Assembly (NCBI GenBank): GCA_023259315.1
Contig: JAHFQL010000040.1
Coordinates: 1-10,092 of the forward strand
Length of the DNA: 10,092 bases
Origin: Candidatus Woesearchaeota archaeon
Lineage (GTDB): Archaea; Nanoarchaeota; Nanoarchaeia; Woesearchaeales; GW2011-AR4
Direction of reading: 5' to 3'
Shown: piece by piece, positions 1 through 8,039 of the stretch
Layout: every line of letters starts with the position of its first letter
How positions within the stretch are numbered: position 1 is the stretch's first letter
Translations under genes and position numbers: made by a program
Notes under the pieces: generated by a model
Databases searched by the model: none
Seen by the model: the letters and a program-made list of their open reading frames with translations, nothing else
Told to the model about the DNA's origin: nothing

Positions 1-14
1 TATCTTTCACAAAC

Positions 15-22
15 TTTATAAA
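15..22 (+). promoter_or_regulatory. TATA box of the dxs cluster
   Basis: TTTATAAA lies about 40 bases before the dxs ATG. Archaeal transcription usually begins about 25 bases after the centre of the TATA box, which gives a start near 44 and a short leader. This is a motif reading only; no BRE was confirmed. Confidence 0.5.
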
Positions 23-46
23 CCTAACAACAACTTCGATAATTAA

Positions 47-57: not shown

Positions 58-1947
58 ATGCAGCAAGCTCAAGACCATTTAGAGAAATATGTAATTCTCA
101 ATAAAATTGACTCTCCCAAAGACTTGAAGAATCTGAGCAAAGAAAATCTAAAGCAGCTTGCACAGGAAATAAGGGAAAAAATTCTTGAAGTTGTTTCAAA
201 AAATGGCGGTCATTTAGGCGGTCCTTTAGGTGCAGTCGAGCTTTCTATTGCTGTGCATTATATTTTTAATGCTCCTCATGACAAGATTGTGATAGATACA
301 GGTCATCAGAGTTATCCCCACAAGCTATTAACAGGAAGAAGAGATAATTTTCACACCTTAAGGCAATATAAAGGCGTTTGCGGTTTCTGCAATATAACAG
401 AATCAGAATATGATGTATTTGGCGCAGGTCACGCTTCAACAGCAATATCAGCAGCATTGGGCATGGCAAAAGCAAGAGACTACAAAAAGGAAAATCACAA
501 AGTCATTGCAATTGTTGGCGATGGCGCTTTGACAGCTGGCTTGGCTTTTGAAGGTTTGAATAATTTAGGTGCTGAAAAGACAAATATGTTGATTATTCTA
601 AATGACAACCGCATGTCAATATCTCCAAACGTTGGAGCGATTTCAAATTATCTGAACAAGATTGTTTTGAAGCAAGGCTATTTCAAATTAAGAAAAACAA
701 CAAAGGAAATACTGAATAAAATCCCGGGCATAGGCGAAGAAGAAATTGACAGAGTTTTCAAAGCACAGGAAAGGCTAAGGACAATCTCCAGCGAAGGCAT
801 TTTCTTTAAAAGCTTGGGATTCCAGTATTTTGGCCCCATAGACGGCCATAATATTGACGAAATGATCACAGCATTTCAGAACATAAAAGATTTGAAAGGG
901 CCTGTCTTGCTGCATATAAAAACTGAGAAAGGAAAGGGATACGCATTTGCAGAAAAAGACATTGACAAGCTTCATGGAATGCCGCCTTTTGACCCAATAA
1001 ACGGTCAAAAATATGTAACAACAACCAAGGTGACATACACAGATGCGTTCTCAAATGCTCTGATAAGAATATCAGAAGAAAATGAAAGAATTGTTGCCAT
1101 AACAGCTGCGATGAAGGCAGGCACTGGCTTAAATCATTTTGAGAAGCATTTTCCCGAAAGAACAATTGATGTTGGGATTGCAGAGCAGCACGCGGTTACA
1201 TTTGCTGCAGGCCTTGCAATTGCAGGCATGAAACCGGTCTGCGCAATTTATTCAACCTTCTTGCAGCGAGCCTATGATCAGATAATCCATGATGTTTGCC
1301 TGCAGAATCTGCCTGTAATATTTGCATTAGACAGGGCAGGTTTAGTCGGGGATGATGGCCCAACCCACAATGGGCCCTTTGATATTGTTTACTTAAGGGC
1401 AATTCCTAACATAACCATAATGGTTCCAAAAGATGAAAATGAACTGCAACACATGCTTTACACCGCAACTTTTATTGAAGGACCTTCAAGCCTGAGATTT
1501 CCAAGAGGCGCTGGTATTGGAACAGGGCTTGACTCAGAATTTAAAAAATTGGAATTAGGCAAAGGAGAAATTCTGAGAGAGGGAGATGATTTATTGATTT
1601 TGGGTGTAGGCCCTATATTGTATGATGCAATAAGCGCTATCGATGAACTTAAAGTAAACGCTACTGTGATTAATGCAAGATTTGTAAAGCCGCTTGATAG
1701 TGATTTGATAATTAAATATGCGCAAAAGATTGGGAAGGTGATGACTCTTGAGGAAGGCAGCATCAATGGCGGCTTTGGCTCTTCAATCTTGGAATTGCTT
1801 GAAGACAAAGGCATAAAAGCAGATGTAAAAAGGGTTGGAATTCCAGACGAGTTTATAGAGCATGGCAAGCCGGACATTCAAAAGAAATTGGCTGGCATAG
1901 ACAAGGAAAGCATAAAGATGGCAATTAACAATTTGATGAACATATGA
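58..1947 (+). CDS. dxs: 1-deoxy-D-xylulose-5-phosphate synthase
   Basis: This enzyme condenses pyruvate with glyceraldehyde 3-phosphate, using thiamine diphosphate (TPP), to give DXP, the first step of the MEP isoprenoid pathway. At 629 aa it has the full family length. In order one sees a GGHLGG motif (51-56), TGHQSYPHK (81-89), GHAS (124-127), the TPP/Mg signature GDGALTAG (154-161) ending in the NDN of 182-184, and YFGPIDGH (257-264). The pyrimidine-domain motif DVGIAEQHAVT (371-381) contains the catalytic Glu at about 376, and GDDGPTHNGP (431-440) follows. The C-terminal transketolase domain runs from about 490 to 629. These motifs separate DXS from ordinary transketolase. The ATG is supported by a Shine-Dalgarno site and an upstream TATA box. 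The stop overlaps the next start (ATGA), which indicates an operon. DXS is bacterial in character; in this archaeal setting lateral transfer is inferred. Confidence 0.96.
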   Translation: MQQAQDHLEKYVILNKIDSPKDLKNLSKENLKQLAQEIREKILEVVSKNGGHLGGPLGAVELSIAVHYIFNAPHDKIVIDTGHQSYPHKLLTGRRDNFHTLRQYKGVCGFCNITESEYDVFGAGHASTAISAALGMAKARDYKKENHKVIAIVGDGALTAGLAFEGLNNLGAEKTNMLIILNDNRMSISPNVGAISNYLNKIVLKQGYFKLRKTTKEILNKIPGIGEEEIDRVFKAQERLRTISSEGIFFKSLGFQYFGPIDGHNIDEMITAFQNIKDLKGPVLLHIKTEKGKGYAFAEKDIDKLHGMPPFDPINGQKYVTTTKVTYTDAFSNALIRISEENERIVAITAAMKAGTGLNHFEKHFPERTIDVGIAEQHAVTFAAGLAIAGMKPVCAIYSTFLQRAYDQIIHDVCLQNLPVIFALDRAGLVGDDGPTHNGPFDIVYLRAIPNITIMVPKDENELQHMLYTATFIEGPSSLRFPRGAGIGTGLDSEFKKLELGKGEILREGDDLLILGVGPILYDAISAIDELKVNATVINARFVKPLDSDLIIKYAQKIGKVMTLEEGSINGGFGSSILELLEDKGIKADVKRVGIPDEFIEHGKPDIQKKLAGIDKESIKMAINNLMNI

Positions 1948-2171
1948 ATAAAAAAATTATCTATAGTTGGATTGTTGTAATCGTCGCAGTATTTTGGTTG
2001 ATAAGGAATTTAAGGTCAATGTGCGTGGATTACAATGATAAACCTGGTAAGTGTGGATGGTGGATAGGGAATAATTTTCTTTTCAGTGGAGAAGTATACC
2101 ATTACATCCTGATTTTATCTCCAATAATAATAGGAATAATACTCACTTACATCTTAATCAAAAATAAATAA
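1944..2171 (+). CDS. Small two-helix membrane protein, unknown function
   Basis: This is a 75-aa protein of no family I recognise. It has two hydrophobic segments, about residues 5-20 and 51-72. They are joined by a polar stretch with two cysteines (27 and 37), a WW pair (39-40) and several glycines. Both ends are lysine-rich, so the two termini probably face the cytoplasm and the cysteine loop faces outside, where the cysteines could form a disulfide. Its ATG overlaps the dxs stop codon (ATGA), so it is probably co-translated with dxs. Nothing in the sequence links it to isoprenoid chemistry beyond position. The overlap and a clean open frame make it a likely real gene. Confidence 0.7.
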   Translation: MNKKIIYSWIVVIVAVFWLIRNLRSMCVDYNDKPGKCGWWIGNNFLFSGEVYHYILILSPIIIGIILTYILIKNK

Positions 2172-2182
2172 TATTTAAAAAA

Positions 2183-2452
2183 ATGGAAGAAAATGCCAGT
2201 AAAATAAAAAAAGAAAAATGCCCACATCTCAAGGAAATCAAAATTACAATCTCCAAAAAAACTAAATGTGAAGTATGCAATGAAATAAATCATTTGCGCG
2301 TTTGCGCCTCATGCGGTTTTGTTGGCTGCTGCGAATCAAGCAATGCGCATGACACGGAACATTTTAAAAAAACAAATCATCCGATTATAAGAACAATACA
2401 TACAAATTACAATTTCACCTGGTGCTATAAATGCAATTCATATCTTGTATAA
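2183..2452 (+). CDS. Stand-alone UBP-type zinc finger protein
   Basis: This 89-aa protein is almost entirely one UBP-type zinc finger (zf-UBP). The ligand pattern is complete: C13 and H15, C29 and C32, C41 and C44, C49, then H56, H60 and H66. The diagnostic core reads LRVCASCGFVGCC (38-50), followed by HPIIRT (66-71). In eukaryotes this fold in deubiquitinases, HDAC6 and BRAP binds the C-terminal diglycine of ubiquitin. Small single-domain versions exist in bacteria and archaea and their role is unknown. The usual WCY near the end is present at 80-82 and is followed by an extra cysteine, giving C81-x2-C84. The gene lies 11 bases after the membrane protein gene and one base before ispG, so it is probably co-transcribed with dxs and ispG. 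No direct functional link can be read from the sequence. Confidence 0.88.
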   Translation: MEENASKIKKEKCPHLKEIKITISKKTKCEVCNEINHLRVCASCGFVGCCESSNAHDTEHFKKTNHPIIRTIHTNYNFTWCYKCNSYLV

Positions 2453-2453
2453 A

Positions 2454-3524
2454 ATGATTCAAAACAATATTATTAGAAGAAAATCAAGGAAAGTAAAAGT
2501 TGGCAAATTATTCATAGGTGGTGATGCCCCGATCCCAATCCAGTCAATGACAACAACAGATACAACCGATGTCAAGGCAACTGTTGAACAAATTCATGGA
2601 CTAGAAGAAGTTGGATGTGATATAATCAGAGTTTCTGCTCCCACAATGGATGCTGCACAAGCTCTGAAGGAGATAAAAGAAAATATAAACATTCCATTGG
2701 TCGTTGACATTCATTTTGACTACAGGATTGCTTTGGAAGCTGTCAAGTATGTCGACAAGCTTAGGATTAATCCCGGCAATATTGGCAACCCGGATAAAGT
2801 GCAGCAAGTTGTCAAGGCATGCAAAGATTATTCTGTGCCTATGAGAATTGGCGTAAACCTTGGATCTCTTGAAAGAGACTTGTATGATAAGTATGGTTAT
2901 GCGCCAGAGGCAATGGCAGAGAGCGCAATGAGGCATGTTAAGATTCTTGAGGACTTGGATTTTTATAATATGATTGTCTCATTAAAAGCTTCCGATGTTC
3001 CTAGGATGGTGAAGGCTTACAGGTTGTTTGCAGCCCAGACTGATTATCCACTTCATTTGGGTGTTACAGAAGCAGGCTCAAAATTGCCAGGCGCTGTCAA
3101 GTCGGCAATGGGCATGGGCATGCTGCTCTCAGAAGGCATAGGCGACACAATCCGGGTTTCTTTGTCAGAGGATCCAAGAGAAGAGGTCAAAGTAGCAAAA
3201 CAGATTTTGCGCTCTTTGGGCTTGAGAAATGACGGCGTTCAAGTTACTTCCTGCCCGACATGCGCAAGAACCCACATTGATGTGATAAAAATAGTTGAAG
3301 AACTTGAAAGCGAAACTGAAAAGATAAAAAAGCCAATTCATGTTGCTGTAATGGGCTGCGCAGTCAATGGCCCCGGCGAATCAAGAAAAGCAGACCTTGG
3401 AATTGTTGGAGCGCCAGGAAATCATTTGCTTTACAAGAACGGACAGATTGTGAAAAGAATTAACGATTCAGAAATAAAAGAAGTTCTTTTGAAAGAGATA
3501 AATGAGATTGCAAATGGGAATTAG
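2454..3524 (+). CDS. ispG: 4-hydroxy-3-methylbut-2-enyl diphosphate synthase
   Basis: IspG (GcpE) is a [4Fe-4S] enzyme that reductively opens methylerythritol cyclodiphosphate to HMBPP, the sixth step of the MEP pathway. With the ATG at 2454 it is 356 aa, the usual length of the bacterial two-domain form. The TIM-barrel half begins with RRKSRKVKVG and holds PIPIQSMTTTDT, VVDIHFDYR and LRINPGNIG. The C-terminal iron-sulfur half has SCPTCART with C267 and C270, then MGCAVNGPGES with C302 and the catalytic Glu 309. All three cluster ligands are present. An upstream in-frame TTG at 2445 lies inside the preceding gene and is a poorer start than the ATG, which follows that gene's TAA after one base. 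The plant/protozoan insert domain is absent. Electron donors and the other MEP enzymes are not in the window. Confidence 0.95.
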   Translation: MIQNNIIRRKSRKVKVGKLFIGGDAPIPIQSMTTTDTTDVKATVEQIHGLEEVGCDIIRVSAPTMDAAQALKEIKENINIPLVVDIHFDYRIALEAVKYVDKLRINPGNIGNPDKVQQVVKACKDYSVPMRIGVNLGSLERDLYDKYGYAPEAMAESAMRHVKILEDLDFYNMIVSLKASDVPRMVKAYRLFAAQTDYPLHLGVTEAGSKLPGAVKSAMGMGMLLSEGIGDTIRVSLSEDPREEVKVAKQILRSLGLRNDGVQVTSCPTCARTHIDVIKIVEELESETEKIKKPIHVAVMGCAVNGPGESRKADLGIVGAPGNHLLYKNGQIVKRINDSEIKEVLLKEINEIANGN

Positions 3525-3550
3525 GATGAGATGAATAGAAATAAATTTTA

Positions 3551-3784
3551 TTATAATTTCTTTAAAATTTCTCTACCCCTATTTGTTATAGACACGTGAA
3601 AATATGGTTTTCCATTTGTTTCATGTTTGTTTAACTTTTCAATTGTAATTGCTCCAAAAATTTCTAGTTCTTTGCAATTCAATAAAATAGAACGATAACT
3701 AGTATTAACATTTCTTTCCAATTCAGCAAAAGTACGAGAACTCCAAATACCATCTAGCCAATTTAGAGAGCCACCAGCGCACAA
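3551..3784 (-). pseudogene. Winged-helix DNA-binding protein, probably lacking its 5' end
   Basis: The protein reads as a winged helix-turn-helix domain. Helices cover about residues 17-41 (TFAELERNVNTSYRSI, then CKELE). A short strand and a wing follow (44-68, with NGKPYFHVSITNRG), and the end is the usual REILKKL. This pattern is typical of small archaeal ArsR/MarR-like regulators. The only available start in frame is a TTG at 3782-3784, and the frame is closed by a stop at 3803-3805. The first helix expected before TFAEL is replaced by an unconvincing MCAGGSLNWLDGIW. The coding part therefore seems to begin abruptly near 3760-3780. It runs convergent to ispG with a 26-base gap. It could instead be an intact short regulator using the TTG start. 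Confidence 0.5.
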
Positions 3785-4100
3785 AGACGGTTTCAGACCA
3801 GATTATTTAATTGGGTTAACGGATAATCATCAATTAAGTTTTGATTATGTTCCTAGTGCTAGAGAACAGGATGGTTACGAAATTAAAGAGTTAGTGGTTG
3901 TTAATGGAAAAACCAATATTGTTTTGGCAAAAGGAAGAGAAGAAATAAAATTTGAATTACATCTTTCTAGTGCAATCGCAAGAAATAATGCTTCTTTGAT
4001 TTGTACAAAATTACAAGAAATACCATTCAAAGCTTATAGAGATTTAGTTGGAGAGAGATATGTAAAAGTTCTTCAAAAAACAAGATATGTTCATCCATGA
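3783..4100 (+). pseudogene. 5'-truncated open frame of unknown family
   Basis: The frame is open from 3699 to the TGA at 4098, but the first usable start is a GTG at 3894, which would give 68 aa. The translation looks like protein well before that GTG, from about 3783 (KDGFRPDYLIGLTDNH onward), and yields a mixed alpha/beta chain of about 105 residues ending in KTRYVHP. No ATG, GTG or TTG lies between 3699 and 3893, so the natural 5' end appears to be missing. I do not recognise the family. Its left edge coincides with the broken 5' end of the winged-helix gene on the other strand, which suggests one rearrangement cut both genes, or a misassembly joined two fragments. Confidence 0.4.
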
Positions 4101-4142
4101 GTTAGCAAAATTCAATTTTTATGATTAATCTTTATCAAATTT

Positions 4143-4271
4143 TTAAGTTCGTCTAATAATTTTCAAAATTCTAGTCTCAGTATCCCTTATCACTCTTTGC
4201 CCTTTCGCATAATTCTCCGTATTGCACTCAAAAATTATGTTTCTATTTTCAGCTTCGCATATAATAAAATT
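4143..4271 (-). pseudogene. Possible gene remnant without a start codon
   Basis: A 42-codon stretch on the minus strand has protein-like composition (ICEAENRNIIFEC, then KGQRVIRDTETRILKIIRR). It is bounded by stops at both ends and has no ATG, GTG or TTG near its beginning. It is in the same frame as the 156-aa gene upstream but separated from it by three stops. It may be the 3' remnant of a decayed gene or chance. The rest of 4101-4304 shows only AT-rich sequence. Confidence 0.2.
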
Positions 4272-4304
4272 TTATAAAAACGTTTTGCAGAATTATCTGA
4301 AATT

Positions 4305-4775
4305 TCACTGTTCTTCCTTCTCTTCATTTATTATCTTCTTGACAAAAAATATGAAAGTTCTTGTCTTATCATAATTCTGTTTTAATGTGTCTATATTGAC
4401 TTCAACCACCTCTCCTTTGTCAATAGTCGCAATCATTGTAACATGCCTTCTGAATTCCTCCCTTTTTGTGTATTCAGCCTTGCTCAACTTCCTCAGCATC
4501 AAGTAAAAATTTATGTATTCTATTAAATCAATATTTTCAGGAAAAGTTTTCCTTAGCAAATCACATCTCAATCCGGCATTTGTTGGTATCGCCGTTATCA
4601 ATTTTTTTTCTTTTGCATATTTAAGCAATGACTCCAAACCATATCCTATGCAGTTTATCAGCCGATCAATTACGTGCTTTATAACATCAACTGTTCTTGT
4701 ATATTTCAAGCTCACCCAGAACAAGTGGTCAACTCTCTTTAATTCCTGAACCGCCAGATCAAAAGATTCCTTCAT
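4305..4775 (-). CDS. Unknown helical protein, third gene of the Sec61-beta/NAC set
   Basis: This 156-aa protein is not one I recognise. The sequence suggests a mostly helical N-terminal two-thirds (about residues 1-110). It contains an amphipathic stretch around TVDVIKHVIDRLINCIGYGLESLLKY and a basic patch at KREEFRRH (about 103-110). A short strand-like end with VEVNIDTL follows, then a charged tail (NEEKEEQ). No signal peptide or membrane helix is evident. The helical region resembles HEPN/DUF86-type bundles in general character, but the R-x4-6-H motif of HEPN nucleases is not convincingly present, so I do not assign that family. The ATG at 4775 lies seven bases after the NAC stop, so the gene is probably translated from the same message as Sec61-beta and NAC. 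Confidence 0.75.
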   Translation of the reverse strand: MKESFDLAVQELKRVDHLFWVSLKYTRTVDVIKHVIDRLINCIGYGLESLLKYAKEKKLITAIPTNAGLRCDLLRKTFPENIDLIEYINFYLMLRKLSKAEYTKREEFRRHVTMIATIDKGEVVEVNIDTLKQNYDKTRTFIFFVKKIINEEKEEQ

Positions 4776-4782
4776 ATTAGAA

Positions 4783-5124
4783 TTATTTGTTTTGTAATTT
4801 TAATATTGCCTGTGCAAGATTTCCGTTGCTTTCCTCAAGCGCTTGCAGTGCTTCTTCCCTTGTGCAATTTGTCTGTTCCATTACCGTTGACATGTCCTCC
4901 TTGTTGATTTCTGTTTTGCTTTCTTTTTCTACCTCAGTAGCGTCGCCGACAATCTGGAATGTTTCCTGTCCCATCATGTTAACTCTGCTGACTTGGGGAT
5001 TTTTGATGACCAAATCTTTGTCATGCATCTTGATTATGACCAACTCGGCATCCATCTCTTCCTGCTTTATGCCAAGCCTTTTCATGGCTTTTTGCATCTC
5101 TCGAGGGTTCATTCCTGGAAACAT
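4783..5124 (-). CDS. nac: Nascent polypeptide-associated complex protein (archaeal NAC)
   Basis: Archaeal NAC is a homodimer related to the eukaryotic alpha subunit. It binds near the ribosomal exit tunnel and contacts emerging chains. The 113-aa length is typical. The N-terminus reads FPGMNPREMQKAMKRLGIK (2-20), a family hallmark. The NAC barrel covers about 26-66, with LVIKNPQVSRVNMMGQETFQI (38-58). A UBA domain follows at about 74-113, with CTREEALQALEESNGNLAQAI (87-107). The start lies four bases after the Sec61-beta stop, so the two genes share a transcript. Both products work at the exit of the ribosome, which makes the pairing functionally sensible. Confidence 0.95.
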   Translation of the reverse strand: MFPGMNPREMQKAMKRLGIKQEEMDAELVIIKMHDKDLVIKNPQVSRVNMMGQETFQIVGDATEVEKESKTEINKEDMSTVMEQTNCTREEALQALEESNGNLAQAILKLQNK

Positions 5125-5128
5125 GAAC

Positions 5129-5305
5129 TCACCTTATTCCAAGAAGACTGTTGCCCCATGTGTAAAGAAATATCATGATTACTATAACCACAACACACAG
5201 CACGATAATGTGGCCTGGCTTGAACTTGATTTTGCTTTCATACTCGTCAAAATACCTCACTAAGCCGCCCATGCCGGATGGCATTGAAATTTTGTCTTGC
5301 GCCAT
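5129..5305 (-). CDS. Preprotein translocase subunit Sec61-beta (SecG-type)
   Basis: This 58-aa protein is the small beta subunit of the archaeal SecYE-beta translocon, a tail-anchored membrane protein. The translation begins MAQDKISMPSGMGGLVRYFD, and the PSGMGGLVRYFDEYE pattern is the family signature. KIKFKPGHI follows, then one membrane helix at about residues 33-49 (VLCVVVIVIMIF) and a short tail. The length matches archaeal Sec61-beta. The TATA-like ATATTTAAAATAA sits about 23 bases before the ATG, so the message may be leaderless. It is the first gene of a set with NAC four bases downstream. I am confident despite the small size because the motif, topology and promoter agree. Confidence 0.93.
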   Translation of the reverse strand: MAQDKISMPSGMGGLVRYFDEYESKIKFKPGHIIVLCVVVIVIMIFLYTWGNSLLGIR

Positions 5306-6406: not shown

Positions 6407-6415
6407 TTTATATAT
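6407..6415 (-). promoter_or_regulatory. TATA box of the 91-aa membrane protein gene
   Basis: The minus strand reads ATATATAAA. It overlaps the final codons and stop of the upstream methyltransferase gene and lies about 38 bases before the downstream ATG, which predicts a short leader. Confidence 0.4.
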
Positions 6416-7538
6416 TTTTCTTTTTAAGTATCAGGATTGCAAGCTTTTGCTCGCCGCTCCATAAATCCTTCTCTTTAAACACATCAAAATTATGGCTTGA
6501 GGCATGCTTTTTAACCAAATCCGGCATTCTTGCAATCAGGCCAATCGTGCCATTTTTTTTCAAAATGTACTCGCTTTGATAGAAGAACTCATTGTATATC
6601 TTGTCAAGATTGGCATTCTTTGATATTGGAAGATTTGTTATTATTTTGTCAACACTCTCTTTCTTGAACTTGATGTCGAGCCATTCCAATTCTACCCTGC
6701 TGAAATTTATTTCTTTGTCAACACCAGCAATCTTGGCATTTTTCTTCGAGTAGTCAACATACTTGAATAAATGGTCAAAGGCATATATCTCCGCTTTGAT
6801 TTTTTTGGCAATCTTTTTGTCAGTATTCCTAAAGAATTTCTCGAAATCCACACCAATATCAAGTTTAAGGAAGGCAAACCTGTCTTTTTTGAAATAATTG
6901 CATGGAAAGCCAGTTGCAAAGAACGCAGTTTCAATTGCAACAATGCCGTCTCTTGAAAAAGGATCCAAAATAATGTCATTTTTCTCAAAGCCGCTTTCCC
7001 TAATCAGCGCGTAAGCGATTGTGCCCCTCAAGGAGCTTGGATGAAGAAAAATTTTATAAGGCCTTTTGTTAAGCTCAAAGCCCGCAAAATCAATGCCGAT
7101 ATAGCAATTGTCATTGATTATGTAAACTAAAAAAATGATATCATAGTCTTTAATATCCAAAGTAATTTTATTTTTGTATTTGCTTGAAATCAACATTGCG
7201 AACTCCTTCTCAACATCAACACTTTTAAAATTGTGGTTTCCATGCCTTACGCACTCAACCTTGAATTTTTTATTTTTGATTATCCATTTAATTAATTCCA
7301 ATTTGCCAATGGCATTTTCAAGATCATTAAAAAAATCCTTAAATTCAAAATTATCAATCAAATACATAACCCTGTCTGCAGACTGGGATTTGTAGCATAG
7401 CATGCACAAATCTTCAAAACTTTTGCATTCAAAAACAACGCAGGAATCTTGAATCTCGCATTTGCCATCGGTCAATTCCTTTATCTCTGTGCTTGCATAT
7501 TTTTCAATGCCCTTTGATGTTATAACCAGCCCTTTCAT
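6408..7538 (-). CDS. THUMP-domain RNA methyltransferase, Trm14/TrmN-like
   Basis: This protein (376 aa) has the layout of the Trm14/TrmN/RlmL group, SAM-dependent enzymes that usually make N2-methylguanosine in tRNA or rRNA. The N-terminal ferredoxin-like and THUMP region spans about 1-155, starting with GLVITSKGIEKYASTEI and ending in IGIDFAGFELNKRPYK. The linker LHPSSLRGTIAYALI (165-179) is typical. A Rossmann methyltransferase domain follows, with motif I as DPFSRDGIVAIE (192-203), an acidic motif II at IYAFD (251-255) and motif IV as TNLPISKN (301-308). The usual forms are DPFCGSGT and (D/N)PP(Y/F)G, so glycine in motif I and the second Pro and the aromatic of motif IV are changed. Activity or substrate may differ. 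The ATG has a TATA box 27 bases upstream and is divergent from the PIN gene. Confidence 0.87.
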   Translation of the reverse strand: MKGLVITSKGIEKYASTEIKELTDGKCEIQDSCVVFECKSFEDLCMLCYKSQSADRVMYLIDNFEFKDFFNDLENAIGKLELIKWIIKNKKFKVECVRHGNHNFKSVDVEKEFAMLISSKYKNKITLDIKDYDIIFLVYIINDNCYIGIDFAGFELNKRPYKIFLHPSSLRGTIAYALIRESGFEKNDIILDPFSRDGIVAIETAFFATGFPCNYFKKDRFAFLKLDIGVDFEKFFRNTDKKIAKKIKAEIYAFDHLFKYVDYSKKNAKIAGVDKEINFSRVELEWLDIKFKKESVDKIITNLPISKNANLDKIYNEFFYQSEYILKKNGTIGLIARMPDLVKKHASSHNFDVFKEKDLWSGEQKLAILILKKKNI

Positions 7539-7640: not shown

Positions 7641-8039
7641 ATGAAAAAAATAATCATAGACACCAATTTTTTGATGATACCATGGCAGTTCAAGGTAGAC
7701 ATATTCTCGGAATTCGACAGAATATGCGATTTTAATTATGCTTTATTCATTTATAATGGATCAATTGACGAATTAAGGAACATAATATCGGCTTCAAAGG
7801 GAAAAGACAAAAAGGCTGCTCAATTTGCATTGAAACTCATAAAATTGAAAAATATAATAGTTTTGAAATCGGAAAAAAAAGATGTTGATTCTTTGATTCT
7901 GAAAAATTCAGATGACAGTACAATAATAGCAACCCAGGACGCCATTCTTAAGAAAAAACTGCTTGAAAAAGGTAACTCAATAATCATATTGAGGCAGAAA
8001 AAATACCTTCAATTAATTGAAAGAAAGATTTATAAATAA
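7641..8039 (+). CDS. PIN-domain protein, Fcf1/VapC9-like
   Basis: This is a single PIN domain, a Mg2+-dependent RNase fold, of 132 aa. The first strand reads KKIIIDTNFLMIP with the catalytic D7 and N9. E44 lies in GSIDELRNI, and acidic residues follow at D91/D92 and D100 in NSDDSTIIATQD. The end, GNSIIILRQKKYL, is the last strand typical of the archaeal group related to Fcf1/Utp23, which are rRNA-processing proteins in eukaryotes. The protein is not paired with an antitoxin gene; instead it precedes rpo7, the conserved archaeal position for this PIN protein. A role in rRNA or RNA processing is therefore more likely than toxin-antitoxin function. The gap to rpo7 is 58 bases and holds a possible second promoter. 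Confidence 0.87.
   Translation: MKKIIIDTNFLMIPWQFKVDIFSEFDRICDFNYALFIYNGSIDELRNIISASKGKDKKAAQFALKLIKLKNIIVLKSEKKDVDSLILKNSDDSTIIATQDAILKKKLLEKGNSIIILRQKKYLQLIERKIYK

Follow-up and report, generated by a model that had tools for sequence, protein, structure and literature searches.

MEP pathway genes on a Woesearchaeota contig

The contig JAHFQL010000040.1, assigned to a Candidatus Woesearchaeota archaeon, was analysed over its whole length of 10,092 nucleotides, and it is this entire stretch that we refer to as the window and to which position numbers refer. At its head, both on the plus strand, the window carries dxs and ispG, two genes of the bacterial-type 2-C-methyl-D-erythritol 4-phosphate (MEP) pathway of isoprenoid biosynthesis, preceded by a promoter-like element:

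11..24, plus strand: archaeal-type B recognition element (BRE)/TATA element AAACTTTATAAACC, with the TATA about 43 bases 5' of the dxs start
58..1947, plus strand: dxs, 1-deoxy-D-xylulose-5-phosphate synthase (DXS), 629 amino acids (aa); TIGR00204, 846 bits; nearest other protein 83% identical
2454..3524, plus strand: ispG (gcpE), 4-hydroxy-3-methylbut-2-enyl diphosphate synthase (HMBPP synthase), 356 aa from ATG, frame open from a TTG at 2445; NF001540, 501 bits

Both genes are present and intact on the window. The 846 bits of DXS compare with a TIGR00204 cut-off of 466 (DXS Pfam E 5e-117) and the 501 bits of IspG with an NF001540 cut-off of 345 (IspG Pfam E 3e-151). The ATG at 2454 is the likely start of IspG, giving a protein of 356 aa, a size shared with most of its top-listed relatives, and the protein is 92% identical to the nearest of them. 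When aligned with solved enzymes DXS carries H52, GDGA from 154, E376 and H437, and IspG carries C270, C273, C305 and E312 (359-aa numbering), all of which we take to be catalytic or Fe-S cluster-binding positions. An earlier sequence-only reading of the window had described full-length DXS and IspG with their key residues, and this description holds in that both proteins lie far over the curated cut-offs and these residues are present.

In order to place the two genes in context we compared them with 12 Woesearchaeota-type loci (L001-L011 and L019) from the genomes G001-G012, whose genes were labelled by BLAST to the proteins of L007 and of the window. Upstream of dxs an A-rich sequence is followed by TTTATAAA or TTTATATA, as is typical of an archaeal BRE/TATA box. 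The motif stands 29-45 bases 5' of the called start and occurs in 11 of the 12 regions compared, that of the window included. The comparison left out L011, on which no dxs was found, and among the 12 regions compared the TATA-type motif is absent from that of L010. As the upstream sequences are related, the agreement reflects conservation and not eleven independent events.

Two short reading frames, neither of them named in the earlier sequence-only reading, lie between dxs and ispG:

1944..2171, plus strand: hydrophobic open reading frame (ORF), 75 aa, overlapping the dxs stop; no Pfam match, may not be a gene
2183..2452, plus strand: small zf-UBP zinc-finger protein, 89 aa; PF02148, E 2e-13

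L002 (7725-8009) and L005 (3291-3563) likewise have a zf-UBP gene in the interval from dxs to ispG.

Gene order in relatives and archaeal neighbours

Where the relatives' contigs continue past dxs-ispG they go on with ispC, ispDF, ispE and ispH, followed in several by S15. The whole run dxs-ispG-ispC-ispDF-ispE-ispH is found in 6 of the 12 loci (L002, L003, L006, L007, L008 and L010); in G009 it is spread over two contigs, as it is in G012, where ispG is divided between contig ends. Curated models recognise Dxr, an IspD-IspF fusion, IspE and IspH in L007, the fusion scoring under the cut-off of the bifunctional model and over those of ispD and ispF. A fused ispDF frame is present in L001 and L007, and the window contig is without ispDF. 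In L006 (10441-11632) IspDF occupies two frames as against the single fused frame of L001 and L007, through either a split gene or a frameshift. A nucleotidyltransferase gene together with a HEPN gene lies between ispG and ispC in L007 (11850-12856), and a pair resembling it, by eye only, lies between dxs and ispG in L009 (5213-5898).

In nine of the 12 loci (L001, L002, L003, L006, L007, L008, L009, L010 and L019) the contig with the MEP genes also carries archaeal genes for ribosomal proteins or RNA polymerase; the stretch examined of L004, L005 and L011 shows none. Six loci (L002, L006, L007, L008, L010 and L019) show the run rpo7, spt4, S24e, S27ae, DUF7121, P1, L10, L1 and then dxs-ispG. 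Some pieces of the rpo7-L1 part were seen by tblastn only (P1 in L008, S27ae in L010, spt4 in L010 and L019), and spt4 is uncalled in L006. In five of these loci PIN_9 lies 5' of the rpo7 run; the sixth, L002, starts at rpo7. Downstream of dxs-ispG the window carries the following genes:

4305..4775, minus strand: conserved ORF, 156 aa; no Pfam match; 84-85% identity and same place in G007 and G008
4783..5124, minus strand: nascent polypeptide-associated complex protein (NAC), TIGR00264; order the same in G007 and G008
5129..5305, minus strand: Sec61-beta, PF03911; order the same in G007 and G008
6408..7538, minus strand: THUMP methyltransferase, Trm14-like; NF040721, 186 bits, under the cut-off of 280
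7641..8039, plus strand: PIN_9 domain protein, PF18477
8098..8703, plus strand: rpo7 (rpoE'); NF006333, 226 bits
8706..8891, plus strand: spt4; NF041664, 84 bits
8896..9192, plus strand: rps24e, PF01282
9210..9395, plus strand: rps27ae, PF01599
9553..10092, minus strand: DUF7121-like coiled-coil protein at the contig end; 27.8 bits, cut-off 29

Copies of the DUF7121-like protein that lie inside relatives' contigs measure 292-298 aa. The family matches bear out the sequence-only reading that archaeal rpo7, spt4, rps24e, rps27ae, NAC and Sec61-beta share a contig with dxs and ispG, and much of the contig beyond these two genes is clearly archaeal.

The rest of the pathway and the search for HMG-CoA reductase

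Among the relatives' genomes ispC was found in all 12 and ispH in 10 (all but G001 and G004), and 3-hydroxy-3-methylglutaryl-coenzyme A (HMG-CoA) reductase was found in none of the 12. As these relatives hold the rest of the MEP pathway and no HMG-CoA reductase, replacement of mevalonate is supported for the clade, in line with the earlier suggestion that the MEP pathway possibly took its place. The genome search put forward with that suggestion was run in the 12 relatives for ispC, ispH and HMG-CoA reductase, and ispDF and ispE were seen on relatives' loci.

Across 145 genomes of the order, in which the distribution of the MEP pathway was read from ispH, this gene was matched in 36 (35 over the cut-off) and HMG-CoA reductase in nine, with both in one genome and neither in 102. 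The sole genome with both, G021, could be a mixed bin or could hold both pathways. The nine genomes with HMG-CoA reductase disagree with the statement of PMC8421398 that the MEP pathway is the only such pathway in Woesearchaeota, where it is confined to subgroups F and J; the samples differ.

Phylogenetic placement of IspG and DXS

The organisms named among the best 120 of 8000 scored sequences in the IspG search are Woesearchaeota, Nanoarchaeota or Nanoarchaeia, and the best 120 of 7998 in the DXS search are likewise named save for one Nomurabacteria, most rows of both searches being nameless. In an IspG tree of 29 rows (22 of Woesearchaeota type and seven bacteria) the window stands beside P0001, P0002 and L001 among the 22, and a branch of moderate support (88/86) splits these 22 from the seven bacteria. 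The clade is thus assigned for IspG by the tree, at that moderate support, and for DXS by best matches only. A search from the outlying IspG of L010 gave, among the 120 relatives listed, legible names of Woesearchaeota or Nanoarchaeota only, from which the IspG family looks old and varied in the lineage.

No bacterial sister group emerged among the listed matches of these IspG and DXS searches, and the long branches among the seven bacterial rows make the tree unfit to name a donor. Trees described in PMC8421398 place ispG and dxr nearest Firmicutes. The sequence-only reading had proposed lateral acquisition, of which the archaeal hosting is borne out; transfer from a bacterium is unproven by our tree with its seven bacterial rows and rests on the published trees just cited. 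The tree building that had been suggested as a check accordingly placed the window in Woesearchaeota and left the donor unnamed.

One of the compared loci, L004 (701-6040), lies on a contig labelled Nomurabacteria and carries dxs-ispG-ispC-ispDF. Its IspG nests in Woesearchaeota and its dxs has an archaeal-type TATA box, and the label is probably wrong or the contig wrongly binned.

Differing position of dxs-ispG in the window

Between ispG and the conserved ORF at 4305 the window contains the following:

3525..4304, no strand: stretch of about 0.8 kb to which nothing corresponds in the relatives compared and in which two ORFs abut near 3785
3551-3784, minus strand: winged-helix-like ORF, under the Pfam cut-off, within this stretch
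about 3786-4100, plus strand: ORF without a start at its head, within this stretch

From 4305 to its end the window is colinear with G007 and G008 (the 4305 ORF, NAC, Sec61-beta, the 6098 ORF, Trm14, PIN_9 and the rpo7 run), the 5346 ORF having no match in the colinear block of those genomes. There dxs-ispG lies downstream of the block from 4305 to rpo7, whereas in the window it lies upstream of the same block. In addition ispC, ispDF, ispE and ispH are not on the window contig and, unlike in relatives, ispG is not followed by ispC. The G+C content dips to about 0.30 around 3500-4500; its ranges on the two sides of the dip overlap (0.30-0.45 and 0.29-0.43), and composition therefore does not indicate two organisms. 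In the 20 repeat families listed, out of 27 in the window, no direct repeat exceeds 30 bases. The stretch 3525-4304 may be a rearrangement scar, an insertion or a false join.

Interpretation

We conclude with high confidence that this is a Woesearchaeota contig and that its dxs and ispG are native to it and belong to a bacterial-type MEP pathway, which the clade would have taken up from a bacterium and kept and which would stand in for a missing mevalonate pathway. On this interpretation archaeal machinery would transcribe dxs and ispG from the TATA-box promoter, and DXS would convert pyruvate and glyceraldehyde 3-phosphate to 1-deoxy-D-xylulose 5-phosphate. IspC, the IspDF fusion, IspE, IspG and IspH would then carry this product on to isopentenyl diphosphate (IPP) and dimethylallyl diphosphate (DMAPP), ispC, ispDF, ispE and ispH being seen in relatives, and the MEP pathway would thus act in mevalonate's stead. 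Several points weigh against it. The counts for ispC to ispH and for HMG-CoA reductase come from relatives' genomes and not from the window's own, HMG-CoA reductase alone stands for the mevalonate pathway, and absences were counted in genomes of unstated completeness. ispH is missing in the closest genome, G001, where the operon contig ends inside ispE, and in G004. As 102 of the 145 order mates have neither ispH nor HMG-CoA reductase, absence of mevalonate is widespread there and is not necessarily a consequence of the MEP pathway. The TATA motif shared among kin sequences is, as conservation, not independent proof.

The unusual gene order raises the question as to whether the contig was correctly assembled. 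The dxs-ispG block occupies a place seen in none of the compared relatives, beside some 0.8 kb without counterpart where ORFs abut, as might be expected had bacterial dxs-ispG been wrongly joined to an archaeal fragment. Such a chimera is nevertheless very improbable, as the dxs-ispG half is itself Woesearchaeota by the 92% identity of IspG to relatives, by tree neighbours of that name and by the same TATA box, and as nine of the 12 other loci combine MEP genes with archaeal genes for ribosomal proteins or RNA polymerase on one contig; a false join, if there is one, would link two pieces of the same clade. The dxs and ispG of the window are Woesearchaeota genes and not contamination. Two pieces of one Woesearchaeota genome, or of sister genomes, may also have been wrongly joined, which would make the gene order an artefact but not the origin; this reading has a considerable chance of being correct, somewhat short of even. 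The order in relatives, as assembled from several loci, runs 4305 ORF-NAC-Sec61b-Trm14-PIN9-Rpo7-Spt4-S24e-S27ae-DUF7121-P1-L10-L1-dxs-ispG-ispC-ispDF-ispE-ispH-S15, and the window instead heads with dxs-ispG and has no ispC after ispG. A true relocation would, however, give the same picture, and the lack of a direct repeat of that length in the 20 of 27 families listed also speaks against a join. The origin of dxs and ispG is unaffected either way.

It is also conceivable that the sole task of DXS is to supply thiamine or pyridoxal synthesis and that IspG is a remnant, and neither ispC nor ispH is on the window contig. We hold this for hardly credible, dxs and ispG being intact and highly conserved and relatives carrying the other MEP genes alongside them.

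Use of the isoprenoid units

With the MEP pathway read as the source of IPP and DMAPP, we looked for enzymes that would use them in the ten closest genomes (G001-G009 and G012, with IspG 84-92% identical to that of the window; G004 among them is a small bin of doubtful label), in the outlying G010 and G011 and across the order. Geranylgeranylglyceryl phosphate synthase (GGGPS, PF01884) was over the cut-off in none of the 12 relatives, with one weak match. In the order 16 of 145 genomes gave a match, four over the cut-off; all of these matches span no more than a portion of the barrel, the best having an E of 3e-7, and four archaeal controls were positive. On these sequence matches the enzyme is not credible in the genomes searched. 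A trans-prenyl synthase (PF00348) was found in none of the ten closest genomes by a search that was positive in 14 of 14 control genomes. The family is present in both outlying genomes and in 62 of 145 order mates, among them 24 of the 35 with ispH, which leaves 11 of the 35 without it. A synthase beyond the reach of PF00348, or missing contigs, is a possible cause of the absence in the ten. UbiA passes the cut-off in 58 of the 145 genomes of the order, of which 21 belong to the 35 that have ispH, and was not found in G001, the one of the ten closest genomes searched for it.

Two order members (L029, G053:C30; L030, G136:C117) carry IspH and a trans-prenyl synthase in one unbroken frame, of 631 and 553 aa. 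No such fusion is described in the titles or the openings of abstracts listed by one literature search (10 of 17 papers).

A cis-prenyltransferase (PF01255) was found in eight of the ten closest genomes (not in G004 or G006). That of G005 is a divergent, weaker kind (76 bits), so that the main kind is present in seven of the ten. In the order 119 of 145 genomes match, 118 over the cut-off, including 34 of the 35 with ispH. In an alignment of seven rows out of 13 copies (G012, G007, G008, G003, G002, G005 and the second G010 copy) LDGNRR, presumably the catalytic motif, is kept in the first five and not in G005 or the second G010 copy. Neighbouring genes (integrase, methylase and RecJ) give no hint of the product. 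In the window's sub-clade the cis-prenyltransferase is the sole IPP user detected, MiaA and other DMAPP users not having been searched for, and the MEP pathway there perhaps feeds only polyprenyl carriers.

It is improbable that the products of the pathway go by way of GGGPS into archaeal ether lipids. In L010 the operon does continue with genes for a trans-prenyl synthase and for a UbiA prenyltransferase, but GGGPS is over the cut-off in none of the 12 relatives, the matches in the order cover a partial barrel, and the search for a trans-prenyl synthase found none in the ten closest genomes. Tentatively, and with a rather low chance in our view, the sub-clade may have a trimmed isoprenoid metabolism without trans-prenyl synthase and GGGPS, in which a cis-prenyltransferase primed by DMAPP or a scavenged primer makes a polyprenyl carrier for glycans, the lipids of the membrane being obtained from a host or made by a route of bacterial type. 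If true, this would be an archaeon making isoprenoids but not isoprenoid membrane lipids.

Comparison with known systems

An MEP pathway in mevalonate's place in an archaeon breaks the textbook split between the domains. That a bacterial-type MEP pathway replaces mevalonate in Woesearchaeota is already published (PMC8204110, PMC8421398 and PMC10936187). The first describes 52 Woesearchaeota genomes that form a monophyletic clade and have the pathway, with genes co-located and near UbiA, and credits a 2018 paper with an earlier survey. PMC8421398 reports fused ispDF in most of subgroup J and Woesearchaeota without GGGPS and digeranylgeranylglyceryl phosphate synthase (DGGGPS), and PMC10936187 the MEP pathway in Woesearchaeota and Nanoarchaeota of oxygen-deficient zones; the 2024 survey PMC11052028 calls it almost absent in archaea. 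The main texts of PMC8421398 and PMC8204110 do not mention polyprenyl, farnesyl or undecaprenyl, and a missing trans-prenyl synthase is undiscussed there under those names. The window is one more member of this group, to which its relatives add the promoter and neighbourhood argument against contamination, and the question is sharpened to how IPP is used in cells seemingly without trans-prenyl synthase and GGGPS.

The window proteins are homologous across nearly their whole length to the bacterial IspG structure 3noy and DXS structure 2o1s, with active-site or cluster residues in common. Unlike the genes of those bacterial enzymes, the window genes stand on an archaeal contig with an archaeal-type promoter motif and archaeal neighbours. 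The mevalonate pathways of archaea (the archaea-type pathway and variants, PMC11052028) would yield the same IPP and DMAPP through enzymes non-homologous to those of the MEP pathway, and their HMG-CoA reductase is found in none of the 12 relatives. A further close system is the MEP pathway of the Woesearchaeota clade in PMC8204110 and of the subgroups that PMC8421398 calls F and J. It has the same enzymes, and the window's relatives share its co-location of genes, fused ispDF and lack of HMG-CoA reductase; with the ispDF fusion shared by relatives, the contig would belong to subgroup J. The window differs from that clade in that its dxs-ispG has no ispC following and lies upstream of the rpo7 cluster.

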